A stretch of DNA of 32,492 nucleotides from Candidatus Hydrothermota bacterium (lineage in GTDB: Bacteria > Hydrothermota > Hydrothermia > B15-G9 > DRBW01). Every line of letters starts with the position of its first letter. Within the stretch, counting starts at the first letter, position 1. Positions 12,286-32,303 of this stretch are shown here, one piece after another. Location of the stretch: NCBI GenBank assembly GCA_021158525.1, contig JAGGUL010000126.1:1-32492 (forward strand), in the 5' to 3' direction. The position numbers and the translations under genes are program-made. The notes below the pieces were generated by a model that was not told the DNA's origin, did not search any database, and was given only the letters and a program-made list of their open reading frames with translations.

Positions 12286-13584
12286 GTGAGGGAAGCCCTG
12301 CTTATAAATCCTCCTGTTTACGATTTCGCCGCTTATGATTTCTGGTTGAAGCCCTACGGCCTCCTCAGGATAGGCAGGCTTCTCTCAGGTCGCTTCAGGG
12401 TGCATCTCTTTGACTTCATGGACAGACATCATCCCTCTGTGGATGGCCTCACGAAAAGCACCCCTTATGGCACGGGCAAATACGCCAGCGAGATCGCCGA
12501 AAAGCCCCCGCCTCTCAGGCCCATCAAAAGGAGATACAAACGGTATGGCATCCCTCTGGATGTCTTCTTGAAGGAAGTCAGGAAACTGAGGCCTGAGTTT
12601 GTCTTTATTGCCTCTGGAATGACTTACTGGTACCACGGAATCGACGAGGTAGTCAGGAATATAAGAGAGCTTTTCCCAAGGGCGAAAATCGTCATAGGAG
12701 GCGTGTATGCTTCTCTCATGCCCGAGGACGTCTCAATGCGGTTTAACCCGGATCTGGTGGTTATATCCGACAGAATTGAATTACTGCGCGAGTTTATGGA
12801 GATTCCCGAGCCGCCTCAATTCAGCCCGCCGATCTGGGAAGCCTACAGGAAACTGAGATATGGAGTTATAAAATTGCAGGATGGCTGTCCATTTCGTTGT
12901 CCCTACTGTGCTTCGTGGGTCCTCTCGCCCAAGCTGAAAATAAGAGATCTGAGGGAGATCCTCGATGAGATCGATCATCTCTATAAATTGGGCGTTCGAG
13001 ACATCGCTTTTTACGACGATGCCCTTCTCCTCACGGCAAAGAAGTACTTTCCTGTCATATCTGACCACATGAGGAAGAGAGGATACAAAATACGATTTCA
13101 CACCCCAAACGCCCTCCATGCCAGGTTTCTCGACCGCGAAACGGCAAAGCTTATGAAAGAGATAGGGTTCAAATCCGTGTACCTCGGGCTGGAAACGGTG
13201 GATTCAGAAAGGCAGCTTCGGACCGGGGGGAAGGTCACCAATGAGGAACTGGAATCTGCCATCGAAAATTTGCTCGAAGCGGGCTTCGCCAGATGCGATA
13301 TAACCGTTTACATCATGATGGGCCTTCCCGGACAGGATACAGACGAAGTGGAAGCGAGCATCAGATATGTTCACTCGCTGGGAGTGAAGGTCATGCTGTC
13401 GGAATACTCGCCGATACCTCAGACTCCCTGTTTCGACGAAGCCAGGAAAATTCATCCCCTCGGAGATCCCCTCCTTCACAACCCATCGGTTTTCCCGGTC
13501 CTCTACTACGGCGAAGAAGAGGTAAACAGGCTAAAAGGCCTGAAAAACGGCTTAAATAAGAGACTCAGGGGTGTCTGTCCCTGA
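12286..13584 (+). CDS. B12-binding-type radical SAM protein
   Basis: LKPYGLLRIGRLLSG N-terminal domain, KIVIGGVYASLMPEDV, CxxxCxxC cluster DGCPFRCPYCASWVLSP, then FYDDALL and VYLGLETVDSERQLRTGGKVTNEE. Confidence 0.9.
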   Translation: MREALLINPPVYDFAAYDFWLKPYGLLRIGRLLSGRFRVHLFDFMDRHHPSVDGLTKSTPYGTGKYASEIAEKPPPLRPIKRRYKRYGIPLDVFLKEVRKLRPEFVFIASGMTYWYHGIDEVVRNIRELFPRAKIVIGGVYASLMPEDVSMRFNPDLVVISDRIELLREFMEIPEPPQFSPPIWEAYRKLRYGVIKLQDGCPFRCPYCASWVLSPKLKIRDLREILDEIDHLYKLGVRDIAFYDDALLLTAKKYFPVISDHMRKRGYKIRFHTPNALHARFLDRETAKLMKEIGFKSVYLGLETVDSERQLRTGGKVTNEELESAIENLLEAGFARCDITVYIMMGLPGQDTDEVEASIRYVHSLGVKVMLSEYSPIPQTPCFDEARKIHPLGDPLLHNPSVFPVLYYGEEEVNRLKGLKNGLNKRLRGVCP

Positions 13585-14061
13585 AGGACCACTCTCATTG
13601 TCTTCCAGGAGCCTGATGTCCTCCTTCACCATCTTCTCCCCTTCAAACCAGAACTTAGCCTCAAAGGGGCGTCCGGATATCACGAGGGGCAACCACTCGC
13701 GATCATCCTCCCACATCTCTCCGTAAGGAATGTCATCGATGTCGATCCACTGTGGCCTCGCTTCTTCGGTCTCAATGGGCCGGCCGCGGAAATCCTCCAC
13801 CCTGTACACGAAGACCTCCCAGTCCTCCTCGTTCACGGAGAAAAACTCAATATGTCCTACGAGCCTATAGCTCAGAACATCGATTCCCACCTCTTCTTTA
13901 ACCTCCCTGACCATCGCTTCTTCGGGGCTCTCTCCTGGTTCGATCTTTCCCCCCGGCCCGTTCCACTTTCCCCTGCCGTGGCCCTTCTTCTTCTCGATGA
14001 GGAGGATCTTTCCGTCCCTGATTATGTGCGCGATAACTGCCCTTATCACCTCACCTCTCAT
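13552..14061 (-). CDS. NUDIX hydrolase (MutT/MTH1-like)
   Basis: Nudix box GPGGKIEPGESPEEAMVREVKEEVGI. Confidence 0.9.
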   Translation of the reverse strand: MRGEVIRAVIAHIIRDGKILLIEKKKGHGRGKWNGPGGKIEPGESPEEAMVREVKEEVGIDVLSYRLVGHIEFFSVNEEDWEVFVYRVEDFRGRPIETEEARPQWIDIDDIPYGEMWEDDREWLPLVISGRPFEAKFWFEGEKMVKEDIRLLEDNESGPSGTDTPESLI

Positions 14062-14929
14062 TTTTCTGACTCCAGGCTATGAGGAGATCGACCGCATAAC
14101 CAGCATATTCTCCCCATCTGTCGAGGGCAAAGGCAATGAGCCCGTTGGGCTCTCGGAGACCGGGATCTGCATAGAGATACGCTATCATTTTCTGTATATA
14201 GCGATCGACCACCGGTATCTCATAAGCCCTGTAACCGTATAGAAGAGTTGCCCTCGCGGTGTATTCTCCCACGCCCCTAAATTTGACAAGGGCATCGATT
14301 CCGGAAAGAGGATCTCTGCCGAGCTCAACGAAGAAGTCACCGTCGACCTCTCTGGCTATGTCCCGAATGATCGAAGTCCTGTGGATGAGCCTTCTGTCTT
14401 TGAAGTCAAAGGGATCGAAATCCCTGAGCTCCTCCAACGATGGAAAGACGAAATCGACATATCCATCGGCCTCGACCCTGACCCCGAGGAGCTCCTTGAA
14501 TTCAGCAAGCATTTTGAAAAACACATCTCTCGAGACATTCTGACTGATTATCGCGGAGAACAACGCCTCGTGGGGTGATGGTGTGCTCTTGAGCCTGTAG
14601 CCGGGAAGCTCTCTGAGGGCCCTCGCGAGCATGGGGTCGCTTTTCGAGAGGCTCAGGAGAGGAACGAGATCTTCCCGGTGCCCCAACGTTTTCTCGATCA
14701 GGCGCAGAGCTCTCTCCTCATCTGTCTCGGCTCCCTTTATCCTCAGATACCATCCACCGTCGATCTTCTCGAAAAAGGCGAGAAAAAGGCTCCCCGTCTC
14801 CAGCGAGAAGGCCTTGTAAAACGTTCCCCCTTCTTCTTTCCAGGGAGAGAAACGGTATCCCCAGCGCAGGGCCTCCGGGTTAAAAGAAATGCCAAAAACC
14901 TCTGCCAGCTTGTAAGTCGTCTCTCGCAT
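14051..14929 (-). CDS. HhH-GPD family DNA glycosylase (AlkA/3-methyladenine or 8-oxoG glycosylase-like)
   Basis: SPHEALFSAIISQNVS, HhH VKFRGVGEYTARATLL, catalytic-Asp region EIPVVDRYIQKMI. Start set to the ATG at 14929, 6 nt downstream of a perfect TATAAT. Confidence 0.85.
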   Translation of the reverse strand: MRETTYKLAEVFGISFNPEALRWGYRFSPWKEEGGTFYKAFSLETGSLFLAFFEKIDGGWYLRIKGAETDEERALRLIEKTLGHREDLVPLLSLSKSDPMLARALRELPGYRLKSTPSPHEALFSAIISQNVSRDVFFKMLAEFKELLGVRVEADGYVDFVFPSLEELRDFDPFDFKDRRLIHRTSIIRDIAREVDGDFFVELGRDPLSGIDALVKFRGVGEYTARATLLYGYRAYEIPVVDRYIQKMIAYLYADPGLREPNGLIAFALDRWGEYAGYAVDLLIAWSQKNER

Positions 14930-14935
14930 TTTTTG

Positions 14936-14941
14936 ATTATA
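14936..14941 (-). promoter_or_regulatory. Candidate -10 element (TATAAT) of the glycosylase gene
   Basis: Minus strand TATAAT-CAAAAA-ATG. Six nt separate the -10 from the start codon, and no SD is present. Confidence 0.5.
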
Positions 14942-14955
14942 ACCGAAGAGGTCCC

Positions 14956-14985
14956 TTGTCTGAAGGTCTCCCCTGGCATTAAAAT
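14956..14985 (+). promoter_or_regulatory. Candidate promoter of the glycosyltransferase gene
   Basis: TTGTCT-N18-TAAAAT, then 8 nt to the ATG at 14994. Confidence 0.45.
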
Positions 14986-14993
14986 TATGCGGA

Positions 14994-16169
14994 ATGCCTA
15001 AGGTATTGATTCTCAATTCTTTTCCCTGTGATTGGGATCCCGACACTGTCGAGGGCTCTCCCGAAAACGCCTATATACTGAATTGCCTGGCCGACAGCGG
15101 ATTCGAACTTTTTATTCTGGCCCCCCCGGGTGGAGACGCATGTGGCAAAAGGATACCGTACAGGACCATCAAAATGCCCGCTCCCGCTGGGAAAAGGGGC
15201 AACAGGCTGAAACGCTATCTGAATCACGTAAAATTCTATATCCACCTGAACAGAGCCTTCATCTCGGAAGCGAAGGAAATCCTCAAGGAGGAAAAATTCG
15301 ATTTGATCTGGGCTATCGGAACGCCGGCAGCCCCTGCCGCTCACTGGCTGGGGGAAAAATACCGGATAAAAAAGGCCGTGAAAGCCCCCGGGGTCTTCGA
15401 GCTGAACTCATACCATCCCCTGATAAAGGCCCTGCCTTTATATTTTGTGGATCTAATCGCTTTCTCTCTGCCCTTCGACAGGTTTCTGCTGGTGGACGAC
15501 GGCACGCAGCCCGACCAGGTATTGTTGAGAATGGGCCGGAGCAGGGATCAGTTCGACATCTTTCCCAATCCCTATCCCGAGGAGTGGAAAATCGACGATA
15601 GAAAAAGGAGAGAACTGAGAGGAAAACTCGATATCCCCGAAGATGCAGTGACGGTGGGATGGGCTGCCAGATACCACCCCCTGAAGGGAGTGGATTTAAT
15701 AACACCCATCGTCCGTGAGATACTGGAGAGGTTTTCCGGGGTTTACTTCGTCTTTGCGGGCTTCAGGGAAGACGTATTTCCTCTGAGACATCCCAATCTC
15801 AGGTTCTTGGGGATGATACCCCACAGGGAGATGCTCGATTTTTACAACCTCATCGATATCTTCATCCAGACCAACAGGGCTTCGAGCTATGGGCTGCCGG
15901 TGATCGAGGCCGAATACCTCGGATTGCCAGTGATAGGATTTCGCGTGGGAGCTTCTGAAAGGGCCGTTGTCGATGGCGAGACGGGCTTCCTCATAAGGCC
16001 CTTTGATCTCGGGGAATACGTCGATAGGCTGAGTTTGCTGATCTCCGATCAAAACCTTCGGGAAGAAATAGGCAGGAAAGCGAGAAAATGGATAATCGAC
16101 AATCACATCAGCTGGAAGACCCGATGTGAGATGGAAAGAAAGGCTCTCATTAGCATCCTGAGGGAATAG
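14994..16169 (+). CDS. Glycosyltransferase family 4 protein
   Basis: KVLILNSFPCDWDPDTVEGSPENAYIL N-terminus; VTVGWAARYHPLKGVDLITPIV; FVFAGFREDV; GLPVIEAEYLGLPVIGFRVGASERAVVDGETGFLI (GT4 E-x7-E type region). Confidence 0.85.
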   Translation: MPKVLILNSFPCDWDPDTVEGSPENAYILNCLADSGFELFILAPPGGDACGKRIPYRTIKMPAPAGKRGNRLKRYLNHVKFYIHLNRAFISEAKEILKEEKFDLIWAIGTPAAPAAHWLGEKYRIKKAVKAPGVFELNSYHPLIKALPLYFVDLIAFSLPFDRFLLVDDGTQPDQVLLRMGRSRDQFDIFPNPYPEEWKIDDRKRRELRGKLDIPEDAVTVGWAARYHPLKGVDLITPIVREILERFSGVYFVFAGFREDVFPLRHPNLRFLGMIPHREMLDFYNLIDIFIQTNRASSYGLPVIEAEYLGLPVIGFRVGASERAVVDGETGFLIRPFDLGEYVDRLSLLISDQNLREEIGRKARKWIIDNHISWKTRCEMERKALISILRE

Positions 16170-16980: not shown

Positions 16981-19620
16981 ATGGTTTATAAGCGTTTGCG
17001 GGGGTGTGGGGTTCTGTGTGGAATACTTCTTCTTTTAGCAACAAGCCTCTGGGGAGGGATTATTAAGGACGATTTTCTGATAAACGATGATTCGCTTTCG
17101 GGAAGCATGCAGGAGTGGCATTCATCAGCCCTTCTGGCAGGTGGGAATTTTGTCATAGTTATGACCGACCAGAGGGAGACCTATCAGATCTATGGACAGA
17201 TCTATGATCAGAACGGGAACCCCATAGGGGGCAATTTTCAGGTCAGTGAAGCCTACAGCATACTCAACCGCTATCCCGATGTCGCACCGCTCGCCGATGG
17301 CAGATTCGTCGTGACCTGGAACAGGCACACTTTCGGAGAAGACTGGTATGTCACCGCCAGGATCTTCAACTCCGATGCTCTTCCCGAGGGCGATGATTTC
17401 GATGTGCCCGAAAATTCCAGTGGCCACGAGAACTTTCCGTCTGTGTCGGCTTCACCGGATAGGATCTTATTCACCTGGCAGAACGGCCTGGACCTCAACA
17501 TATATGGCAGAGTTTTCGATACCGACGGCAACGCATTGACCGGGGATTTCCTCATATCGGAGACATCGGGCGAACACATGTGCCCTGTTTCGGCCTATGG
17601 CGGTTCGGGCTTTTTCCTCGTGACCTTTATAAGTTCTCTGGCCGACAGCGAATACGTGCTTATGGCCAGAAAGATAAGTCCCGATGGGACTCCCATCGGG
17701 AACAGCTTTATTCTTGGGAACATCAACACAGGGGATCCCAAACCTTACACCCACGACATCACGTCGTTCTCAGGAGGATTTCTCATCACCTGGTACGACA
17801 CGAGAGAGGGAGGTGACATATATCTGACGAAGCTGGACGAGAACGGGACTCCCGTCGGGGACGAGATCAGGGTGACCGAGATATCGGGAACCTGCCTCTA
17901 CAACGCTGTCGCCGCGAGCGATTCATTCTTCTTCGTATCCTACTGGGATATGCGGGAGGACTCGAGCAGGACTCTGGCTGGCGAAATCAAGGGTGACATC
18001 TGGGCCAGAATCATAAGGGCAGACGGCACACCCCTGACCGATGAGTTCAGGGTCAACTCCGATCCACCGGGAGCTCAGCAGGTTTTCACCGACGTGGCGG
18101 GATCGGGGAACAGATTTCTCGTGTCATTCATAGACAGGCGGAACCTTAACAAGGATGTATACGCCCGTCTCTATGAGCTTTCGGAACCTCTCGGCCCAGA
18201 ATTCCCCGTGGCCGATGACTCGGGGAGCGCGAAACAGATCTTTCCGGCCTGTGATGCTAATGTGAACGATGAGTTCGCTGTGGCGTTTGCCGACGACAGA
18301 AACGGGACGGATCCCGATGTCTTCGTCACCTTCCTGAGCCCCCTGGGCGAGTTCCTGACGCCCAACATCAATGTGGTACAGGCGGATACATGGAACACCC
18401 TTCAGAGTCATCCCGACGTTGCGCTCTCAGCCACTGGAAGATCGGTGGTGGTATGGCTCGATTACCGGAATAATTTCCCCATCGTGATGGGACAGATTCT
18501 CGACGAAAATCACGAGCTTCTGGGATCAAATTTCATTGTGAGCGATGGGAACACAGCATACAGCGTTTACAGGCCCACGGTCGGCATCAGGGATGACGGC
18601 TCTTTCGCCGTGGCGTGGATCGATAACCGCGCGGAAGGAGGAAATCGCCACAGGGTATATGTCAGGCTCTTCGATGCCGGCGGCACTCCTCTCGGCCCCT
18701 CTTTCCGGGCATCCGATGCAACGGGGGACTTCTTCGAGGAAGCCCCCACCCTTTCCATGAACAGAGAGGGATATTTCGTCGTCTCCTGGAAAGAAAAGCG
18801 AGACGCACAGGTGACGCCTTACGTGAGGCTCTTCGATCCTTCGGGGAGCCCGTTGACGAGTTCAATCATGGTTGCCCCGCCACAGGACGCGCTTCTCGAT
18901 CTGAGCAGCGGCATCGATTCCCTCGAGAACTTCGCCGTCGGATGGATCTGGAACCAGCACAGGATCATGGGCAAGGTCTTCGATTCATCCGGCAATGTGA
19001 TCGCCGGTCCTTTTGAGGTGTCAGGCAGCGACACCCTGTCAAATCAGAACCTCAGCGTCTCCATGTCGGCTTCCGGGAGAATAGCCTTTCTCTGGACTTC
19101 CTTCGGAACAGACCCTCAGGGGGAGGTCTGGACTCAGTACTTCGACCTGGAGGGCAATCCGCTCGGGAACAATTCTCTCATAAACGACAACGGGCAGGGC
19201 CAGTATCAGGTCTCCAGGGAATTCAGCTGCGCAGCATCTCCCAATGAGGTGATCTTCGTATGGGAAGACATGAGGAGACAGGGCAAAGGCACGGACGTTT
19301 TCGCCCAGATTAACGACTGGCAGGGCCAGCAGCTCGTCTCGGAAAGAGATGTGCTCGGACACGAGAAAAACAGATTGTTCCTCTATCCCAACCCGACGAG
19401 AGGCAATTTTGTTCTCCAATACTCCGTACCCTCCGGAGGAATCAGAGCTGTGTCGCTCTTTGATGCCTCAGGCAGAAAGATAGGAGATCTCTACAGGCCC
19501 GGTTCGGGCGACCAGCTACCCAGGTCCTATTACATCGGCAACCTGCCTCAGGGAGTCTATTTCGTTGTCGTAAAGACCGACAAGGAGAGCCAGAAAGCCC
19601 GAATAGAGCTTCTAAAATAG
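16981..19620 (+). CDS. Large secreted repeat protein with a T9SS-type/Por C-terminal sorting domain-like tail
   Basis: Signal peptide; many repeats of the form 'DGxFVVTWxDxR...xDIYxRxFdxxGxPxGxxFxV'; tail LFLYPNPTRGNFVLQYSVPSGGIRAVSLFDASGRKIGDLY...LPQGVYFVVVKTDKESQKARIELLK. Confidence 0.8.
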   Translation: MVYKRLRGCGVLCGILLLLATSLWGGIIKDDFLINDDSLSGSMQEWHSSALLAGGNFVIVMTDQRETYQIYGQIYDQNGNPIGGNFQVSEAYSILNRYPDVAPLADGRFVVTWNRHTFGEDWYVTARIFNSDALPEGDDFDVPENSSGHENFPSVSASPDRILFTWQNGLDLNIYGRVFDTDGNALTGDFLISETSGEHMCPVSAYGGSGFFLVTFISSLADSEYVLMARKISPDGTPIGNSFILGNINTGDPKPYTHDITSFSGGFLITWYDTREGGDIYLTKLDENGTPVGDEIRVTEISGTCLYNAVAASDSFFFVSYWDMREDSSRTLAGEIKGDIWARIIRADGTPLTDEFRVNSDPPGAQQVFTDVAGSGNRFLVSFIDRRNLNKDVYARLYELSEPLGPEFPVADDSGSAKQIFPACDANVNDEFAVAFADDRNGTDPDVFVTFLSPLGEFLTPNINVVQADTWNTLQSHPDVALSATGRSVVVWLDYRNNFPIVMGQILDENHELLGSNFIVSDGNTAYSVYRPTVGIRDDGSFAVAWIDNRAEGGNRHRVYVRLFDAGGTPLGPSFRASDATGDFFEEAPTLSMNREGYFVVSWKEKRDAQVTPYVRLFDPSGSPLTSSIMVAPPQDALLDLSSGIDSLENFAVGWIWNQHRIMGKVFDSSGNVIAGPFEVSGSDTLSNQNLSVSMSASGRIAFLWTSFGTDPQGEVWTQYFDLEGNPLGNNSLINDNGQGQYQVSREFSCAASPNEVIFVWEDMRRQGKGTDVFAQINDWQGQQLVSERDVLGHEKNRLFLYPNPTRGNFVLQYSVPSGGIRAVSLFDASGRKIGDLYRPGSGDQLPRSYYIGNLPQGVYFVVVKTDKESQKARIELLK

Positions 19621-20334
19621 ATCCTTCGTCAGGTTCGAATTAAGTATCGCCTCGAGGAGAGCGCTATCCTCTCTCCTCGCTGTGAATTTTTCGTAAAATT
19701 TGGAGAGACGCCAGGGCCGCTCCGGAGTATTTTCACCTTTAACGCTCAAAGTGCCGAGGACCTTGCCTATTCTGGGAAGATCGTACATGCTGTCTATCTG
19801 ACAGTTAAGCCTGTTCAGTTCGCCCCGGAAGACCTTTCGAACGCCCCTCTCGAATTCACAGAGCCTGTCAGCGACATCGAAGCGGTTCTCATCGTTTATC
19901 TCAAGATAGGGCACGGGAAAATAAAGGGCGAAACCATTCCCGGTCATACCTATGGCTGGTCTGAGGAATCCCTTCTCCTCGAACCAGTCCGCCACGCGCA
20001 GTGCCATCTCTTCCGCCCTTTTCAATTCTTCCCCTGTCGAGGGGACTTCGGGCTCTCTAACCGGGTCTATATCAAGCACGGCCAGCTGCAATCCGACTAT
20101 GTCATACATGTTCGCGGGCCTCTTGAGGTCCGGACGCCGATCCCGCAGGCCTGCGTATACATTCCTCTTTCCATTCCATTTTCTCGCGGCCTCTACGAAT
20201 TCATCCTCGTTCCCGACGATTTTCCACGCTGGGAAAAGCCCCCTTTTGAGAAACCTCAGCTCTGTGAGGTGTCGGTGATTCAGGAGCCTGTGAAAGTCCC
20301 TGACATCCGATTCGTTGAAATCAACGTCGCTCAT
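19612..20334 (-). CDS. Archaeo-eukaryotic primase (PrimPol)-like domain protein, standalone
   Basis: VYAGLRDRRPDLKRPANMYDIVGLQLAVLDIDPVREPEVPSTGEELKRAEEMALRVADWFEEKGFLRPAIGMTGNGFALYFP (DxD, then TGNGFA where SGNGYH-like is usual), then QIDSMYDLPRIGKVLGTLSVKGENTPERPWRLSKF, which matches the 'NxxRixKlxGTxxxKGxxTpeRPhR' block. Four-bp overlap with the upstream gene. Confidence 0.7.
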   Translation of the reverse strand: MSDVDFNESDVRDFHRLLNHRHLTELRFLKRGLFPAWKIVGNEDEFVEAARKWNGKRNVYAGLRDRRPDLKRPANMYDIVGLQLAVLDIDPVREPEVPSTGEELKRAEEMALRVADWFEEKGFLRPAIGMTGNGFALYFPVPYLEINDENRFDVADRLCEFERGVRKVFRGELNRLNCQIDSMYDLPRIGKVLGTLSVKGENTPERPWRLSKFYEKFTARREDSALLEAILNSNLTKDLF

Positions 20335-21923
20335 AGTACAACGGAATAGGAAAGGCTCATCCTGCTTTCCGTATAATCGCTTGAGTTTTCCGAGCTATAT
20401 CTCCTGAGCCTCCAGGCAGCTCTCAGAGACCCGAACCTGCCCAATTTATAGCTGCCTCTCAGAGAGAATTTAATGTCACTTCCGCCCTCGAGAGGCGCAT
20501 AGCTCAGGGCTACGTTTAGTCCTGCCTTTGAAACCCGTAAACCGGCACCGAGCGTATAGTAGATAAACCCGCTTTCCCCGCCGTCAGTGCGGGTCTGCAT
20601 GAAGTAAATCCCGAGAGAGGGAGTGAAATCCTTCGTCATCTGGAGCGAATAGTCTGCGGAAAACTTAATGGAGCTTGTCTCCGAGGTGTCAGCGGCATCT
20701 TCTTTGACAGATCTCTCAGCCGCTATGCCAAGGCGAAGGGTCTGCTGTTTCCAATAAGAGATAGCGAAGGCCGGGTCGAACCTGAGGGAGGAAACGCGCT
20801 CAAAGGATGACCTCAGGGAATCCTCCGATTCGTTTCTCACCCTCGCCTCGTGGTATGCGATGTTGAAGGCCACAAGTCCCGGCCTCGAATATCTGAACCT
20901 GCCCGAATAGCTCTGACTCTTAGCCGTTGCCAGCTTATCTCCCAGAAGGTTGTTTCTTTTGTCCTCGTAAGCCAGCTCAAATCGAAGGCCCTTCGCCGGC
21001 GCAAAGCTCACCTTCCCTCGATATTTTCTGTAGTCGTTGTGGGAAGAAGCCAAACCGAGAGAGGTAAATCCCGGCCCCAAATACCTGTACGAGAGATCGA
21101 ACTTTGCCAGCCAAACCCTGAGTTTCGCCCTTAATTTGTAGGCAAAATCGGCTCTTGTCGAATGTCTCGGCTTCATCAGGCTTTTGACTATCCCCGGGAC
21201 CTTGGCAGTGTCTAACTCAGGGCTGTTGAGGTCCCTCGTGTGCACGCTCGCCGCTGCCTCGCCCTCCAGGTCGAATCTCTTCCTGAGAAAGCTCAGAACG
21301 AAACCGAAGGCGCTCACCAGGTTTTCCTGAGGAAGCAGGTCTCCCGGGTTTTCTATGGAATGGGGGTCATCTCTGACCTTTATGAGGCTCAAAGCCGTTC
21401 TGATCTTCTTCCCGATGCCCACGCGGATCCCATATAGATACCTCCTGAAGGACCTGCCGATGCTGTCCTCGCATTCCCTCTTCGACCTGCCGCCTACGAG
21501 GAAAAGCCTGAAGATCCCCGGATGAAGGTCAAGGCCACCTCCTCTCAGTGTGACGCCCTGAAGGATCAGATCGCTGAACCTGGGGGGAAAATTCCCCAGA
21601 TAGACCTTTCCCCAATTCCACGCCGGGTTGAGAGATATCCTGTTTATGGGCTGAGTCACGATCCTCTGTTCGCCCTCGGAAGTGTAAAAGAAATCTGTGT
21701 TGATCCCGAAAGTCATGCCCAGAAAACTGATCGACGGAGTGAAACGAATTCTGAAAGTGTTCGGGGGCCTCCTCCCTTCTCTCCCCTTCATCGAATAATT
21801 TTCAAAATACACACCCAGGTTGCCACCGAGATTCACGCCATTCATGAGGCGGATCGACGCCGGTAGTTGAACGGCGAAGAAGAAAAGGGCAAGGACAAAA
21901 AACGCGTTTCTACCTGGCCTCAT
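20331..21923 (-). CDS. Predicted outer-membrane beta-barrel protein
   Basis: Signal peptide MRPGRNAFFVLALFFFAVQLPAS; alternating amphipathic strands; aromatic/hydrophobic C-terminal strand YTESRMSLSYSVVL. Start set after the ORF-track extension. Confidence 0.7.
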   Translation of the reverse strand: MRPGRNAFFVLALFFFAVQLPASIRLMNGVNLGGNLGVYFENYSMKGREGRRPPNTFRIRFTPSISFLGMTFGINTDFFYTSEGEQRIVTQPINRISLNPAWNWGKVYLGNFPPRFSDLILQGVTLRGGGLDLHPGIFRLFLVGGRSKRECEDSIGRSFRRYLYGIRVGIGKKIRTALSLIKVRDDPHSIENPGDLLPQENLVSAFGFVLSFLRKRFDLEGEAAASVHTRDLNSPELDTAKVPGIVKSLMKPRHSTRADFAYKLRAKLRVWLAKFDLSYRYLGPGFTSLGLASSHNDYRKYRGKVSFAPAKGLRFELAYEDKRNNLLGDKLATAKSQSYSGRFRYSRPGLVAFNIAYHEARVRNESEDSLRSSFERVSSLRFDPAFAISYWKQQTLRLGIAAERSVKEDAADTSETSSIKFSADYSLQMTKDFTPSLGIYFMQTRTDGGESGFIYYTLGAGLRVSKAGLNVALSYAPLEGGSDIKFSLRGSYKLGRFGSLRAAWRLRRYSSENSSDYTESRMSLSYSVVL

Positions 21924-23754
21924 CGAAACCCTCCCTTTTCTCAAGCCTTCCGACCAATTCTCGAAGAAGGGCATTCTCCTCTCCTCTATCCAGCTTTGAC
22001 CTCAGGTAATCGAGCAGCTCTTTCTCTCTGCCCGTCTTTCTCGCAGCTTCCATAAGGCCATCACAAACCTCACGGGTGGCCTTCAACTCGAGCGCCCTTC
22101 GAAAAGCGAGATATGCAGCTTCCATGTCTCCACTCTTCTTATAAAGGCCGGCGAGCTCGTAGTGGGCCCGGAAAATCTTGGGGTTAAGCCTGAGGGCCTT
22201 CTCGAAGTACAAACGGGCCCTTTCCAATTCGTCCCTTCCCTCGCAAAGACGCCCACAGTATATGAGGAGCTCCGGGTTGTCCCCCTTCTCCTCTACGAGA
22301 CCTTCGAGATAACGGGAGAGCCCTACTCCGTCGATCTCCCTCATGAGCTCGAAAGCCCTGTCAGCCTCATCACGGGCCCTCCTGGCTCTCTCCCCTGCCC
22401 TTTTCAGGGAAACCTCACTGGCATAACCGACGTCATCGGCCCCGTAGGCAGCGAGACCCATATAGCCTACGCCAGCCTGCAGGTCCAGGGCGAGCTCAAA
22501 GCACGTCTTCAGGTACCTGAAGGCCGAATCGGGCTCTTTCTCGGCCAGGCTCTCACCGAGCCTTAAATAGGGATAGGGATCACGGGATCCCCCTTTCACC
22601 GCTTTCATGAATCGGCCTAAAGCCGCAGCCGTATCGCCCAGCCTCTCGCACAGGATCCCCGAACGAGTGAGGAAATAGGGATCTTCCTTTCCCTCGTAAT
22701 ATATTTTGGCCCTCTGCACGTCCACTTCCTCCAGTAGAAGTCCCATCTCTCGAGCGAAGCCCGCATCCTCGGGATAACGTCTCAGAGCCTCCTCGAGGAC
22801 CTCGATCTGTTTCTCCGGATTCTGCAACTTTCCGGCGAAGTGATACATCTCCCAGTAACCTTTTCGACCATCATCCCATTTAGAGGCAAACTCCCTCGCC
22901 TCTTCGAAAGCGGATTCGTAATCCTCCGATCTCACGTAAAGTCGAATGATCTTCCTGTGAACATCGACATCACCGGGAAAGCGCCGCTCTATCTTCCTGT
23001 ATATCTCGAGGGCCCGCTCCTCGCGACCAAGGGCTATGTTCAGCTCTGCCGCGAAAAGATGAAGGTCTTTGCTGTCGGGAAACCTGGAGAGCCAGCCTTC
23101 CACAAGCGGCAAGGCATCAAGAGCGCGATTGAGCGCAACGAGCGCCCTGGCCTTGAGGAGGTAGACAGAGGGTTCATCGGGAAACCTCTTCAGACCTCCC
23201 TCGGCCAGTTCGAGAGCCTCCTGGCTCCCTCCAGTCTTCAAGAGAAGGTTTCCAAGGTCCACCAGGACCCTGAAGTTATCGGGGTCGTAAGTAAGTCCTT
23301 CCCTGAAAGAGACCATGGCCCTTGCCGTATCGCCGGACTGGAGCGCCTCCACCCCTCGCCTGAAAGAAATGAGGGAAAGCACCTTCGCCACTTCCTTCCT
23401 GTCGGGCTCCAAACGGGCCGCTTCCTTTGCTTCCGATTCGGCCCGTCCGATATCTCCCATCTCGTAATGAAGAAGAGCCAGAGAGACGATGGGCCTGATG
23501 TCATCGGGCAAGAGAGACCGGGCTTCCTTCAAAACTTCCTCTGACTCAGGGTATTTCTTTTCTCTCCTGTACACATCCCCGAGGAGCAAAAGGATCTCCG
23601 GGTTGGAAGGTTCTTCTTCCAGAGCCTGAAGAAACTCCTGCTCTGCCCGGGCAAGCTCGCCCTCCTCAAGAAGGGCGAGCCCTTCCCTGACATGAGACGA
23701 TTGAGTACCGACGAGCGCAGCGATGAGCTGCGCGAATATGAAAAATCCCATCAT
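21910..23754 (-). CDS. Tetratricopeptide repeat (TPR) protein, probably exported
   Basis: N-terminal hydrophobic leader MMGFFIFAQLIAALVG; many TPR units (ALLEEGELARAEQEFLQALEEEPSNPEILLLLGDVYRREKKYPESEEVLKEA...). Confidence 0.9.
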   Translation of the reverse strand: MMGFFIFAQLIAALVGTQSSHVREGLALLEEGELARAEQEFLQALEEEPSNPEILLLLGDVYRREKKYPESEEVLKEARSLLPDDIRPIVSLALLHYEMGDIGRAESEAKEAARLEPDRKEVAKVLSLISFRRGVEALQSGDTARAMVSFREGLTYDPDNFRVLVDLGNLLLKTGGSQEALELAEGGLKRFPDEPSVYLLKARALVALNRALDALPLVEGWLSRFPDSKDLHLFAAELNIALGREERALEIYRKIERRFPGDVDVHRKIIRLYVRSEDYESAFEEAREFASKWDDGRKGYWEMYHFAGKLQNPEKQIEVLEEALRRYPEDAGFAREMGLLLEEVDVQRAKIYYEGKEDPYFLTRSGILCERLGDTAAALGRFMKAVKGGSRDPYPYLRLGESLAEKEPDSAFRYLKTCFELALDLQAGVGYMGLAAYGADDVGYASEVSLKRAGERARRARDEADRAFELMREIDGVGLSRYLEGLVEEKGDNPELLIYCGRLCEGRDELERARLYFEKALRLNPKIFRAHYELAGLYKKSGDMEAAYLAFRRALELKATREVCDGLMEAARKTGREKELLDYLRSKLDRGEENALLRELVGRLEKREGFDEAR

Positions 23755-25721
23755 CTTGCCCTATAGGCTCTCGCCCTTTTGCTCTCGTTACCGGAGGTGT
23801 CGAGGGAAGTGATCCTGTAATAAAGGCCCTTCCTTCCCTCTCTGTCGATGAATTTCTCCGCCCTAAGGGGCCGATCGTTGAGCCTCTCGAAAACGCCGGT
23901 GGGCAAATCAGACCTGTAGACGTTATAACCGAGGAGGTCATCGACGGACACCTTTTCCCAGCGGATCTCGACGCCCTTCTCCGTGACCGTGATCTTAACA
24001 CCGGCCGGCGGAGGTGGCGGCGCGAAGTCACGGGCAAATTCAGCGATGAAATCAGTCCTACAGCTCTCGTTGCCCGCAGAATCCACGGCAGAAACGGCGT
24101 AATAATAACTTCTGCCCTTCTCAACGGAGGAGTCCACGAACTCGTAAGAAGCTGCACTCACCTCACCGATCTGCGATGGTTTGCCATCCTTGATCTTTCT
24201 GTAAATCCTGTAGAATGCCACGTCTGGCGAAGCGCTCACGCCCCACCGGATTTTTATCGTCCCGTCGGCGAGGGCCTTCGTATCGACGGAAAGGGGCGGC
24301 TCAGGAGGAACGTCATCGGGTATCTTCACCGAGAGAAATTTCTTCTCGCTCTCGTTCCGAGCCTGGTCGATGGCTGTCACGGCGTAAAAATATGTCCTGC
24401 CCGGTGCGAGCCCCTTCCTTCTGTAGCCGAGATCGAGATAATAGAGAGTGTCCGGTGGAATCGGCTCGCCCACAATCAACATGGCCTTTTCCGGTGACTT
24501 TCCCCTGTAAATCCTGTAGCCGAGAAGGCCTTCGTCATCGGGCTTTTTCCAGGTAAGCCTTACCTTCCTACCCTCGAACTCGTATCTGACGTCTCCTGGA
24601 GGCGGCGGGGGTGTCAAGTTCTTTGACCTCGCGGCGACAGCTCCGGAAGGTTTGCTCTCGTTGCCGCTCTTGTCGACAGCCACTACCTTATAGAAATACT
24701 GAATCCCGTATTTGACATCGGAATCGACATAGCGGGGCTTGTCTCCGGGAACAGGCTTTTTGTTGATCCTCACGAAGTTCTCTGAGGGCTCGGTAGATCT
24801 CAGGACGTAATAGTGCGATAGGTCGAGATCGACGTTCATGTTCCAGGTCAGTACAATCCTTCCCTCTTCGCCTTCTGCCTTCAGGCCCTCGGGTATCAGG
24901 GGAGGCGTCAGATCCCTCGGCACTGCCTTCGCTTTCGGGGAGGGAGGTCCTTCTCTGCCTGTGAAATCGCGGGCTTTTATGTAATAGGTGTACTCGATGC
25001 CGTTTTCCACCTTCCTGTCCTCCCTGATCATCCCGCCTTTCTGCCTCATCACCGGAACCTTATTGATCCTGATAAATTCTTTTTCTCCCCGGGCTTTCCT
25101 GTAAATGTTGAAGGTCACCGTGGCCTCCTCAGGCCTGCCGCTGTGAGGCGGATAATCCCATTTGATCCTCACGTAGCCGTCCCCTTCCTTGAGCTCCGGC
25201 TTATCGGGCGGCTCTGGCAGCATTTCCTGAAGTTTCACCTTCTCCTCGATCTTCCCCATTTCCTTTCCCCGTAGGTCCCTGAAGATTATCCTGTAACGTT
25301 GTCTTCCCCTCTTCACGCCGGCATCGATGAAAAGCCTGCCCGTTGCCCCGGCGACATTCAGGCTCGCGAGGCTGAAGGCAAATCCCACGCCGGGATCTCC
25401 CAACAATCTCCTCGCCACCTGCACCTCATCTTCCGCCTTCAGAGCCTTTTTCACCCAGTAATAGTCGTCCTCCAACGCCGTCCTGAACATCAGGGGATCT
25501 CTCACCGGAACCACCAATTTTTCATTCAGCTTCTTCCAATTCCCCCCTACTTCCCTGTAGATGTCAAACCCCTCACAGTATCTCGGAATTTCCGTGACGA
25601 GGATATAGGCCGTGTCGGACCTGTAGGCGACGAGAAAGGGAGGGGGTTCCCCTGCCTCAGCACTGAGAAGGGCTATCATCCCAACCCCCAAAGCCAAACC
25701 AAGATACCTCATTCCTCTCAT
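23751..25721 (-). CDS. Secreted protein with multiple fibronectin type III domains
   Basis: Signal peptide; repeated Fn3 modules (PPPPPGDVRYEFEGRKVRLTWKKPDDEGLLGYRIYRG...YFYAVTAIDQARNES). Confidence 0.9.
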   Translation of the reverse strand: MRGMRYLGLALGVGMIALLSAEAGEPPPFLVAYRSDTAYILVTEIPRYCEGFDIYREVGGNWKKLNEKLVVPVRDPLMFRTALEDDYYWVKKALKAEDEVQVARRLLGDPGVGFAFSLASLNVAGATGRLFIDAGVKRGRQRYRIIFRDLRGKEMGKIEEKVKLQEMLPEPPDKPELKEGDGYVRIKWDYPPHSGRPEEATVTFNIYRKARGEKEFIRINKVPVMRQKGGMIREDRKVENGIEYTYYIKARDFTGREGPPSPKAKAVPRDLTPPLIPEGLKAEGEEGRIVLTWNMNVDLDLSHYYVLRSTEPSENFVRINKKPVPGDKPRYVDSDVKYGIQYFYKVVAVDKSGNESKPSGAVAARSKNLTPPPPPGDVRYEFEGRKVRLTWKKPDDEGLLGYRIYRGKSPEKAMLIVGEPIPPDTLYYLDLGYRRKGLAPGRTYFYAVTAIDQARNESEKKFLSVKIPDDVPPEPPLSVDTKALADGTIKIRWGVSASPDVAFYRIYRKIKDGKPSQIGEVSAASYEFVDSSVEKGRSYYYAVSAVDSAGNESCRTDFIAEFARDFAPPPPPAGVKITVTEKGVEIRWEKVSVDDLLGYNVYRSDLPTGVFERLNDRPLRAEKFIDREGRKGLYYRITSLDTSGNESKRARAYRAR

Positions 25722-25733
25722 GACCTCCTCCTC

Positions 25734-28700
25734 TCAGAGATTAAGGATTTTCTCACCCTGGCTCTCCAGGCCCGCACCGTTTATAGCCTTAACTATCACC
25801 TTGATCTTCCAACGTTTCCTTCCCATCGAGACGGTCGCCGATGTATTTCTACCGGCCGATTTCCATTCTTGCATTGGAATCCACCTGTGATTCGCTCTCG
25901 ACCACCTGAAAACTCTATACCTGTATTCATAAATCCCCGACTGAGGATCATTGGAGGCCGTCCAGGTAATCCGCAGTAACCCCCTTGCGAAGGAATAGGT
26001 GAGGTTTACCTCCGGAGGATCGGGGGGAGAATTATCGTAAAAGTGAACTACCATGGTGGCGGTGTCGGGAAAACTGGCCAATCCTGCCCCATTGATCGCC
26101 CTTACCTGTGCGTAAATGGTGTCTCCTTCCCGCATGGCGATATCATGTATGTAGACCCTCTTGAATATGGGCGAGACCCTCGTCCAGTCTTTCAGCTCAT
26201 TTCCATAAGGAGTTCTGCCGAGGGCGTATTCATAACGGGCTACAGTCGATTGGCTATCCACGGAAGTTGCCCAGCGCAGGAAAAGGGTCTGAGGGCCACC
26301 GTAGTACGTCCGGACGAACTGATTTATGTCGGGAACTGTGGGAGGCGTCGTGTCCACAGTTATGCCGTCGGAAAGCCCCATGAGACTCTGCATTCCCTCA
26401 CCGTTCACGGCTTTGACCCCCACGTAGTAAGTACTGCCGTTCTGAAGGTTGAGGCCCCTGATGTTCAGCTCGGTCATGCCGCCGGCCGAAGTCCAGTCCT
26501 TGACGTCCGGCATATACACATTCGTGTGCAGCATAGGGAAGTAAACCATCGTCCCGACCGAATAAAGGTATTCGTTTATTCCCGATTGAGGATCGAAGGC
26601 ACGCCATCTCACGTGAAGAAGGTCTGAGCTCGAGGTGAAATCGCCATCGTCCTCGACGATGGGAATCGTCGGAGGCGTGGAGTCAACGCTGGAGAGGTTA
26701 AAGTTCACCACTCCTCCGCCGGCTTCCCTGTACGCAACCTGGACTTCACCCGTTCTCGTGATGGTGTACCCACCTCTTCCCCTCGCCCTCAGGTAAACGG
26801 TATAGAGCCCTTCCGGGTCCACACCTCTTATAAGGGGAATATCCGTACTCGTTCTCAGCCCCAGAGACCTGTACAACAGCAGGATAAGGGGCGGGAAGAA
26901 CCCTCCGCCCGAATCCGAAGAGGGTGCGACAGGACAATAGGAGTATTCAACTATGCCCTCGGGGTGATCGGCCGAGTAGTTCAGGTGGATTTTTGCATAG
27001 TCAACATTGGCGCTCCTGGAATACCCCGACAGATAGGTCACGAGCGGCGCACGGAGGAAGTCGGCTATGCTGTCCCTCACCTCCGCGTAATGCTCCCTCA
27101 TCTGTTCCTCAGTGTAATAGGTCGGAATGAATATTCCCCCGAAAGGACCTATCCCGGGATGGTAAACGTAGACCATTCGCCCCTCGGTTGTGAGAAGCGA
27201 GAGCTGATCGTAAAGATCATAGAGGAGCTCATACAGCCTGGATTCTCTCTCGAAAACCGCGCTCAAATCGAAAGTATATCTTATCCACTTCGTCACGAAC
27301 TCGTTCCTTGAATCGGAGAAGGTCTGTTTAACCGTGTCCCTCGTGGCGACTGTCCTGTTGATGAGATAGGTAAAGCCCGCATAAGGTATCCTGTACCAGA
27401 CCTGAAATCCGGTTGAGTCGCAAGCGTTCTTCCAGAAAGCGACGGAATCGCTCGGATTCGATCTCCTGAACATGTCGAGGTAGTGATGAAGGGGAAAGGT
27501 GCTGTCGAGCTCGTGCATGATCTGCTCCCTGTATGAGACGAGGTTTATCAGGTGGGAAAGAGGCGCACCGGGAATGCCCGAAGGATAAAGGCGTTCCGTC
27601 TGCTCGTGCACGGCGTTGAGGATGTCGTTCTCATGTCGGGAGAGATGGCTCCTGACGCTCGCCGATTGCTGCTGAACGAATTCGAGATAATCCAGAAATT
27701 TGCTGAAATATCTGGCGAATTTCTCATAGGCACCCGCGTAAGCCTCGCTGAGCTCGAAAACAGGGTTGGGCTGGGAGTACAGGATTCTCTCTATGGTGTC
27801 AATGTTCGCGGTGAATTTCAGTACCATCCCCTCGAGCGCGTTCTTATACGCTTCAAGGTCCTCCTTGACCCCCGCTATGTTCTCTCCGTTGGACTCGGCC
27901 CGCGACTCATCGAATCCAAAACCGGTCTGCACTGTTATGGTATTGCCCCCTACGGTGACGGTCGAATATTGAGGCGATCCCACAGGATTTCCAAGGGCAA
28001 GCTCCCTCACTGTGGGCAGCTCTCCCTGCAGGATGTTGTGATACCTCGCCAATTTCTCCTTGACGGCGTTCCGCCGGGCATCGATATCGTCCATCAGGTT
28101 CCTGAGCTCTTCGGCGAGCATCTCGAGGGTATCTCTGCCGGCGCCGATCGACCGGTTGGCGGGGTTGAAAAGCACCTGGTTGAAAACGTTGTCCAGCATT
28201 GGATTGGGAGCCCCCATCCTCTTGTCGGCGCTGTACATATTGTAGAAAAAGTTCCACCTCAAAGAATAGTGATTCACGGTGAGGGCGTTGACCAGGTTCT
28301 GGCCCATCCTTCCCACCTGCTCTTCACTCAGGGTCAGCAGGGAATTAAAGGCATCGTCGAGGGCCTGCTGCAAACTGTCCATGTCCTCCTCCATCTTATC
28401 GGCCAGGTGCTTGGCGTCCTCTATGATCTGATCGTAACGCGAATTCCTGCCGGTACCTCCATCCAGGCCATCGGCCCCTATGGAGATCCATATGCTCCCG
28501 GAGAACACCTCCACCCAGCAGCACTCTGCGGAAAACTCGCCCACACAGTAGACGACGTACTCAGGAGCCCCTATGAAGGCACCTTCAAGTCCGCCGCTTA
28601 CCCCGACGAGCCCACCGAGAATCTCTGCGCTTGCATGAAGCTTTGCGTACGCGCCCCACGAGACATTCCTCTGCCACCAGAGCATCATATCGAAGTCAAT

Positions 28701-31700
28701 GCCGCCCGAGAGCACATACAGGTTAATGCCCTTGTGAAAAGTGGTCTCAAGCAGAAAACCCGGCGGTCCCAGGAAGAAATCCGTACCCAGGGTGACGAAA
28801 GATATGGACGGCAGGACCACTATGTTGCCCGACATCTGAATTCCCCATACGTCGCTGCCGTAAACGTAAAAAGCGCCGCCCCCTCTTCCCTCGACGATCT
28901 GATAGAAGTTGACGTTCACGTTAAACTCGCCCTGGAGAAAGGCCGGGCTCCAGGAAATATCCAGATAAAAATCTCCAACGAACCTCTCCTCGAGGGCCAG
29001 TATCTCGGCATCGAGGGACCAGTAATTCTCGGTCAGGCTCATCAAGGCCCTGCCTTTCACGACGTTCTCGTCAGCCACATAGAGCCCAGCATACAGGAGG
29101 ATTCCAAAGGCCCCTGGCTCCGGCTTCTTCTCGTCGATGGTCCCCATTTTCTCCCTGTTGAATCCACACATCTCCCGCACGGCATCGATGTCAGCTGCAT
29201 CGGGATTATAGAAGAAACCGCCCCCCAGGTCATTGAGAAAGACCGAAGCATAAACCTGTATGTGAAGCTCCTGGGCAGCAAGGAAAAGCCCGAAAGAGGG
29301 CTCTCCAGCCTCGTTCTGCCCCACCTTGCCGACAACTATTCCTCCTGTCCCATTGGGGAGAGTGACCGAGCCCGCTATCCTGAGGGAGGGATTGGAATAA
29401 ACGAAATTGCTCAGAAGCTGGACGCCGGCGATATTCAGGTTTGCTCCGTCTATGTAGAACTTCTTACCGCCGTCTTTCTTTTTGTAGACGAGCAGCTTGT
29501 CAAAGCCGCCCGATGCCAGATCGGTTCCAAGCGTTATATGTGCCCCGGTCATAAGGAAGAAGTTGTCAACTTCGACGGTGACTGTATCTACCTGTCCGTT
29601 GCCCTGTCTCATTGCCGTGATGGTCGAGGCGTTTCTCGCATAGGTGAGGGTCGTGTCCTCCCCGAAGACCAGGGTATCGAGCTCCACGCTGACGAAACGA
29701 TAGATCTCGAAGTTTCCTCCCGTTATGGCCTGGCCGATATTCACGAAATTGCCGTGCTTGTCTATCCTGAGCTTTGTGAACTCCACCCCTCCCTCTACGT
29801 AGCGGAAGTTGAGGCCGAAAGTGCCCGATATGTGAAACTCAAAGGGGATCGCCTGGATCGCGAGGCTGGCGAAGTCCATGTAAAGGACCTTGAGGTCGAT
29901 CTTCTTGTTGTGAAGTATCTCTATGTCTCCGAGATATTCGGCCTTCCAGTCGACATTGCCGTCGAAATCAACAGTTATCCCCGGTAGCACTGAGTCGCCG
30001 ATCGTCTTTCCCAGGCTGATCCTGGTCTTCGTCGTATCTCCGACGACGGGGAAATAGAGATCGGCTATGATGCCGACCTCGCACTGGTCGTCCACAAGTT
30101 CTCCGTCCTGGAGCATGAGTCGCAATCCCACATAGCGGAGGTCGAAGGTAGCGATCCAGAGGTCGAACTCAGTGACATCGCCTCCCCCGAGACCGGGGCT
30201 TTCGGGACCTATGATGTTGACCCCGCCCACTATATTCCCGTCAAAATCTGTCTTCAGCGAAAAGCCGATGGGGCCGAGGGTATCGAGCGGGGACGGAAGG
30301 TTTACCTTTCCCTTCAGCAAGAGATACCAGTCCTCCTCTTTGTAAAAGGAGAGCGTATCCAGCAGAACGTAATCGTTGCCGGGTATGAACCTGAGGGGAT
30401 CGGGAAGGGCAAAGGTACCCCTTATGTTGAAATCCTCATCGGAAAACTCAAAGCGAAATCCACTGTAATTTAACAGAGTTGTGTCCCTGCCGTGCATCCT
30501 GAGCTGGATACTGCCCGAGAAAGATGTCCAGAAAAAGTCCTCGGAGCGATCGTAGCCCAGCTCGATGGCTTTATGGGGAGAAACATCGTGGATCCTGAAG
30601 GTGAAACCGAACATGGTGAACTGCTGATTCGTGCTGAAAGCTTTCCCCTCTATCCCGTTCGAAGTAACTATAATGTCATTGAGGGTGGTAATGGGGCTGC
30701 TTCCGGCATAGGGAATGTAAACCTGTGCGTCTATGAAAATCTGATCAGAAGGCCCCTCGTAATACACTTTTGTCACATGAAGAGCATCCTTGTAGAGCTT
30801 GAAAAGGGCCGAGTCCTCCGATTCCTTGATGATTTTCCCAGAGTTTATCGTGGAGGACTCGGGGTGGGAGGGATTTAAAGTTATATCGAGGCTATCTATA
30901 TCTACTCTGAGGGTCTCATCGTCGAAGGGCTTGATCCTCAAAAGCCCCGAACCGCTCATGACATAACGGCCTGCCGTGGGATTGGAGACAGTTCCCCTGA
31001 TCTTCTTGAGATAAATGAGGTCGGGGACCACGATGAGGCTGTCGAGACCGGGTATGAGCTGTTCTGTCATTTTGACGTAGTATTTCACGCTATCCACCTT
31101 CTCGTTGGGCTCCTCTATATAGTATTTGAGCCAGTGAGAACCCACTTTGCCCGAATCTGTGGGAATTGGAAGGCTCACGATCGTATCTGTATCCCCGACA
31201 TCCTCCCCGAAATCCATCCAGTGAGTGCCATCTATGTAAATCGCTCCCACAACGTGGCCCGAAGTTCCCGGCCTCGCCCACAGAGCCAGCCTTGAACTTA
31301 TCAGCTGTCCCACGAAAAGCGTGTCGGGAAGGATTATCTTGATGCTATCGATCTCAAATTCCCCTCCCTCGGGCGGTGCAGTAACGCCATACGTGAAGGC
31401 CCAGATCTCGCTTTTCCCTTCGTTCTCCCCGAGGGGACTTCCAGACGGATCCTTCGCCTGTACCTGCCAGACGTAGGTCTTGCCCGAATCGAGGTCCGGA
31501 GCATCTGCGGGGTAGGGATAGGAAGTCTGATTTACGAGGTCCGCCTCATGAAGAGGATACCCCTCAATGGCCTGCTCCTTCGTCTGTCCCTCCAGTACCT
31601 CGCATATTTTAAGGTGATAGGTCACTTCGTACCCGGGAGGCACCGATAGGGATGTCCAGCTGAAAGTCGGGTGGGGATCATCGAGAGTATCGCCGTCAGA

Positions 31701-32177: not shown

Positions 32178-32303
32178 AAACACCTCCTTTTCAAAGAGCC
32201 CACACTTCTGGGGCAGAGGGGCACAACTTAAAGGGGGATTATATGTTGAACAGGAACGGCTTCACCCAATTCCACCCGATTAAGTGTGAGCGACATCACA
32301 TAT

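Follow-up and report, generated by a model that had tools for sequence, protein, structure and literature searches.

The window, i.e. the whole 32,492-nucleotide stretch of DNA analysed here, encodes a 240-aa stand-alone protein of the AEP (primase-polymerase) fold in which the histidine of motif II, a diagnostic residue of AEP primases, is replaced by an alanine (A136). We give a probability of roughly 0.55 to the joint reading, drawn from the alignments and the predicted structure, that it is a domesticated stand-alone AEP which would still work as a nucleotidyltransferase, in an accessory repair or repriming role and with a rewired phosphate pocket. The lineage to which it belongs is chromosomal, single-domain and missed by every Pfam model.

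The assignment to the AEPs, made in an earlier note from the letters of the sequence, is far beyond chance, and the motifs quoted there are all present: VYAGL (residues 59-63), VLDIDP (86-91), TGNGFALYF (131-139) and IDSMYDLPRIGKVLGTLSVKG (180-200). In tblastn searches against phage records, the protein matched an unannotated faecal phage contig (E = 8e-13) and a 'DNA directed DNA polymerase' of Bacteroides phage C3_41T2LP (7e-11), and its orthologues matched PHROG 2478 (DNA polymerase/primase) with E-values up to 3.8e-5. A scan of viral contigs with a three-sequence profile found nothing; with a profile of eleven rows it recovered 46 relatives at E-values, calculated relative to the candidate stretches, down to 2e-28. 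HHalign of seven WOR-3 orthologues against 15 His-bearing phage AEPs gave a probability of 99.8 (E = 9e-30) and placed A136 opposite the histidine, so that the substitution described in the earlier note is seen in both the sequence and the profile alignment. A group of phage primases (L016, L031, L040, L044 and L062) likewise has an AEP domain that matches no Pfam model, and its PHROG 19 label names a DnaB-like helicase only.

We also examined the predicted fold. An AlphaFold (AF2) model built from a 30-row alignment had a pLDDT of 93.8 and a pTM of 0.91. A Foldseek comparison, which had been proposed as a check of the assignment, returned AEPs only among the confident PDB matches: AEPs were matched with a probability of 1.00 and made up all of the best 41 by E-value, in the order CRISPR-associated Prim-Pol (CAPP of Marinitoga, PDB 7p9j/7nqd; 2.7e-6, sequence identity about 12%), RepB' (4.3e-5) and LigD PolDom, with PriS and Prim-PolC also present. 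The TM-scores to solved AEPs were modest (0.33-0.54), which places the protein at a distance from all solved members; models of viral primase-helicases matched better, down to 3e-13 with a TM-score of 0.80. With phmmer and hmmsearch, PDB sequences gave chance matches only, and thus the link to solved structures depends on the fold comparison. Pfam, NCBIfam and PADLOC held no usable family. As the earlier note had stated, neither a helicase nor a PriCT domain is attached: there is no Pfam match, and the model has only two short helices past the AEP core. Of the features that define the superfamily, the fold, motif I (hhhDhD/E, here VLDID) and motif III (hD/E, here ID181) are present and the sxH of motif II is absent (G134-F135-A136, with C or Q in orthologues). 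Other published families of the superfamily also lack sxH, according to Kazlauskas et al. 2018 (PMC5862659), and its absence is therefore no bar to membership by homology.

Table 1. Positions in the window of the AEP gene, its motifs and the operon upstream
Feature	Position	Strand	Basis or remark
Gene for the 240-aa stand-alone AEP (primase-polymerase fold)	19612..20334	-	ORF with ATG start, homology, AF2 model, Foldseek
Motif IV KVLGTLS: K191, S197	19744..19764	-	Alignment; motif IV as defined in PMC5862659
R188, conserved Arg past motif III	19771..19773	-	R in 53/56 AEP domains
D181, motif III acid	19792..19794	-	D in 54/56
Motif II TGNGFALYF	19918..19944	-	Alignment and HHalign
Codon of A136, which stands where motif II normally has its His	19927..19929	-	H in 42/56 relatives; C/Q/A in the WOR-3 clade
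Motif I VLDID, metal-binding D88 and D90	20065..20079	-	D88: D in 55/56; D90: D in 56/56
Y60, candidate steric-gate Tyr	20155..20157	-	Y in 53/56; putative role
ATGA start/stop overlap of the AEP gene with the barrel gene	20331..20334	-	Barrel stop ends at 20331
Operon gene upstream of the AEP gene, outer-membrane-barrel-like; pairing not conserved	20331..21974	-	Weak Pfam match and genome comparison
TPR-repeat exported protein, operon neighbour	21910..23754	-	ORF and Pfam
fn3-repeat exported protein, operon neighbour	23751..25721	-	ORF, Pfam and genome comparison
First operon gene, for an exported protein of 2149 aa	25734..32183	-	ORF and genome comparison

By its kinship to G142, the genome of the window belongs to the WOR-3 phylum. 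We searched 147 genomes of that phylum, and a wider set of 390 genomes was also covered. The phylum search gave seven stand-alone orthologues, the window copy included (G000, G034, G142, G094, G087, G103 and G084), and one fused primase-helicase (G139); the wider set added three genomes outside the phylum, in one of which the protein is fused over 966 aa and in another of which it is cut off by the end of the contig. As these are draft genomes, absence from any single one is weak evidence. In the tree, the seven orthologues form one clade and the His-bearing phage AEPs a separate one, each with support of 100/99. DnaG is present in all seven carriers, which means that their main primase is not the AEP. 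Ku was found in one carrier and is absent in G000. We know of no cultured model for the WOR-3 phylum. Three weaker matches from the whole-genome search (L003, L004 and L005; E 0.07-0.3) were set aside as lying within other genes (rRNA-dimethylase-like, glycosyltransferase-like and other).

D88, D90, D181, R188, K199, Y60, R206 and R209 are invariant in 7/7 orthologues. The orthologues share 42-71% amino acid identity, and pN is far below pS in all pairs (dS being mostly saturated), which indicates that the protein is under purifying selection. Such a pattern of invariant residues would be expected of a functioning nucleotidyltransferase site. At motif II, none of the seven has His: the window copy has Ala, the G034 orthologue Gln and the other five Cys. 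Several primase-helicases among the 56 AEP domains aligned have Leu, Gln, Tyr or Trp at this position. One WOR-3 genome carries an AEP fused to an SF3-like helicase region (L014, 1492-3684) with Leu at motif II (SGNGGLVVL).

The residues of motif II, motif IV and the position six further on (IV+6) read A-K-S in the window copy and C or Q, then R and N, in all six other orthologues, the window copy being the only one without the R-N pair of its clade; in phages they read H, K and then A, S or G. In these alignments the three positions, of which two are nucleotide-contact sites of motif IV, vary together, in agreement with the published functional coupling in AEPs, where motif II and IV+6 covary (PMC5862659). 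The same source describes a relaxed motif II in the PrimPol-PV1 supergroup (Gln, His or Tyr, and Arg or Lys in the DR0530-like family) and proposes that the motif IV Arg compensates for it; PolpTN2, whose motif II carries Gln, shows activity in vitro, and the R231A mutation abolishes it. A relaxed motif II is thus already known. We did not find Cys or Ala named at this position in the part of Kazlauskas et al. available to us and, as far as we have checked, a cellular single-domain lineage with either residue there is new.

Among the relatives, L040 and L057 (one clade) and separately L028 have Tyr or Trp in motif II, Ala or Gly in motif IV and a Lys six residues further, a combination found in no His-bearing row; the alignment suggests that the Lys which holds the phosphate has changed place in two separate lineages. 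Two contig-end fragments of G334 (L027 and L030) resemble the halves of one relative with His and the R-N pair, and were kept apart and excluded from the evidence. H20 (20275-20277) and R166 (19837-19839) are invariant in 10/10 rows of the His-less branch; among His-bearing rows, H20 occurs in 3/40 and R166 in none. We do not claim these two residues as replacements for the His, since they may reflect shared ancestry.

We suggest that the gene came from the primases of phages or other mobile elements, where it would have been fused to a helicase, and became a stand-alone chromosomal gene. Two-metal nucleotidyl transfer, as a primase and/or a short-gap polymerase, has most likely been retained. 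In place of the motif II His, R188, K199 and motif IV (Arg/Lys191 together with residue 197) would hold the phosphates of the incoming nucleotide, and Y60 may confer a preference for dNTPs, in analogy to Y63 of S-2L PrimPol (PMC8065100). Because every carrier also has DnaG, the role would be an accessory one, probably repriming or gap filling in DNA repair. The window gene would use the promoter of the surface operon by translational coupling, with no functional tie to that operon. It is a tentative proposition, to which we would give rather less than even odds, that the WOR-3 AEPs polymerise with Cys at motif II or, with Ala, lacking any polar or charged side chain there, the His being dispensable and replaced by a phosphate cage of motif IV, K199 and R188.

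An alanine at 136 is unable to contact phosphate, and the window copy alone among the orthologues also lacks the R-N pair; both points count against an active enzyme. The earlier note had suggested a possibly non-catalytic AEP fold. Such a protein might bind nucleotide or nucleic acid in a structural or regulatory role, as a subunit. The polar residue of motif II has indeed gone (Ala in the window copy, Cys in five orthologues), the protein has no helicase, PriCT or zinc domain, and there is a precedent in crenarchaeal PriX, an inactive relative of the AEPs. However, the Asp pair of motif I, the Asp of motif III, R188 and K199 are unchanged across a clade of such divergence, and a binding-only protein need not retain the metal triad; the activity of PolpTN2 with Gln in motif II, and its loss in R231A, point the same way (PMC5862659). 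A non-catalytic protein therefore seems unlikely from the conserved residues, and less likely than an active one.

Alternatively, the gene could be a mobile-element primase that the window lineage acquired recently and that has begun to decay, in which case the Ala would belong to this decay. Mobile-element primases are the nearest wider relatives, the window copy deviates most at the nucleotide triad, and the gene was not found in the same-genus genome G001 or in the order, although G001 is only 84% complete. Against decay, the reading frame is unbroken and every other motif is present; the genes of the window include no phage, integrase or replication gene; and the composition of the gene resembles that of its neighbours (GC3 of 0.63 versus 0.60-0.67). 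The six other orthologues are spread across several families, and four of them, from four genera (G094, G087, G103 and G084), share flanking genes, so that the AEP is a stable chromosomal gene there. We regard recent acquisition and decay as improbable.

The four same-strand upstream genes are packed head to tail, which makes the AEP gene the last of a compact operon; its start overlaps the stop of the barrel gene by ATGA, as the earlier note had described. The plus-strand frame across the interval of the AEP gene is interrupted by a stop. At its 3' end, the AEP gene overlaps by 9 bases a convergent plus-strand gene (16981-19620), whose 879-aa product is an exported repeat protein and carries a tail for type IX secretion sorting (PF18962, 6e-10). 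Promoter and terminator scans near the AEP gene gave no useful excess over shuffles. The operon of 2149-aa, fn3, TPR and barrel genes (20331-32183), possibly a surface system, is shared at low identity with G008 and partly with G004, G006 and G019. Among other genomes of the order, the barrel operon recurs in G008 and G004, and G006 also has the large, fn3 and TPR proteins. There is no AEP behind the barrel in G004, and G004, G006 and G008 gave no AEP match.

The significance that the earlier note attached to this linkage was not supported. It had named orthologues that never adjoin the barrel gene as a sign of chance adjacency, and the six orthologues lie beside unrelated genes, never beside the barrel operon: an alpha-2-macroglobulin-like protein and PBP1C in G094 and G084 (the former also in G087), a TldD-like protease in G034 and a CDP-alcohol phosphatidyltransferase in G142. 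The place behind the barrel gene is a local accident. That the AEP works with the barrel operon, e.g. in secretion or in the biology of the envelope, is highly improbable in spite of the compact operon and the ATGA overlap, given operons without the AEP, orthologues without the operon and, on reading the sequence, no evident signal peptide at the N-terminus. No DNA-repair gene is consistently linked to the AEP orthologues.

The clade can be compared with several known systems. As described by Kazlauskas et al. 2018 (PMC5862659), the PrimPol-PV1 supergroup (PolpTN2-like, RepB'-like, PrimQH and PrimHYQ) shares with it the acidic motifs I and III and a relaxed motif II (Q, C or A across the WOR-3 clade), and the G034 orthologue (Q-R-N) has the triad of PolpTN2 (Gln in motif II, R231 and N237). 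In contrast to PrimPol-PV1, the WOR-3 clade has Cys or Ala in motif II, lacks helicase, PriCT and HTH domains, and is encoded by a stand-alone chromosomal gene with no recognisable mobile element rather than by plasmids, phages or integrated elements. The supergroup has a conserved 'Rh' motif IV; six WOR-3 orthologues have the Arg, whereas the window copy has Lys191, and for this reason we do not file the window protein as PrimPol-PV1.

Phage primase-helicases (e.g. that of Bacteroides phage C3_41T2LP, L016; AEP plus DnaB-like) are the nearest abundant relatives and have the same motif order, but they keep the His (SGNGFH), are fused to a helicase and fall in the separate clade. Unlike CAPP, the WOR-3 chain has no TPR or C-terminal domain, and neither the window nor the neighbourhoods read around the orthologues showed a cas-like gene, as judged by reading and partial Pfam scans. 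Prim-PolC (Mycobacterium smegmatis) and the LigD polymerase domain, which are bacterial chromosomal AEPs with DNA-repair roles, match in fold; they differ in their low sequence similarity, in the altered motif II of the WOR-3 protein and in the lack of Ku in 6/7 carriers.

With Gln, Cys and Ala states beside an intact metal triad, this small, soluble-looking family offers a natural mutagenesis series for nucleotide holding in AEPs. Should the family prove active, bacteria would have an accessory primase-polymerase that belongs neither to NHEJ nor to CRISPR or mobile elements; should it prove inactive, it would exemplify an AEP retained for binding only.

Two further features of the neighbourhoods were noted. 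In a pattern chosen after the fact, archaeal-type ether-lipid genes lie near three AEP orthologues (L020, 4925-6773; L025, 1606-3222 and 5805-6527; L024, 11514-12548), and none lies in the window. G034 and G142 have a PcrB/GGGP-synthase family member, with the phosphatidyltransferase directly upstream of the AEP in G142; G034 also has a geranylgeranyl-reductase-like flavoprotein, and G084 has an FAD protein. In the window, 4.6 kb from the AEP gene, genes for a Nudix hydrolase and an HhH-GPD DNA glycosylase overlap head to tail on the minus strand (13552-15046) and are likely an oxidised-base repair pair.
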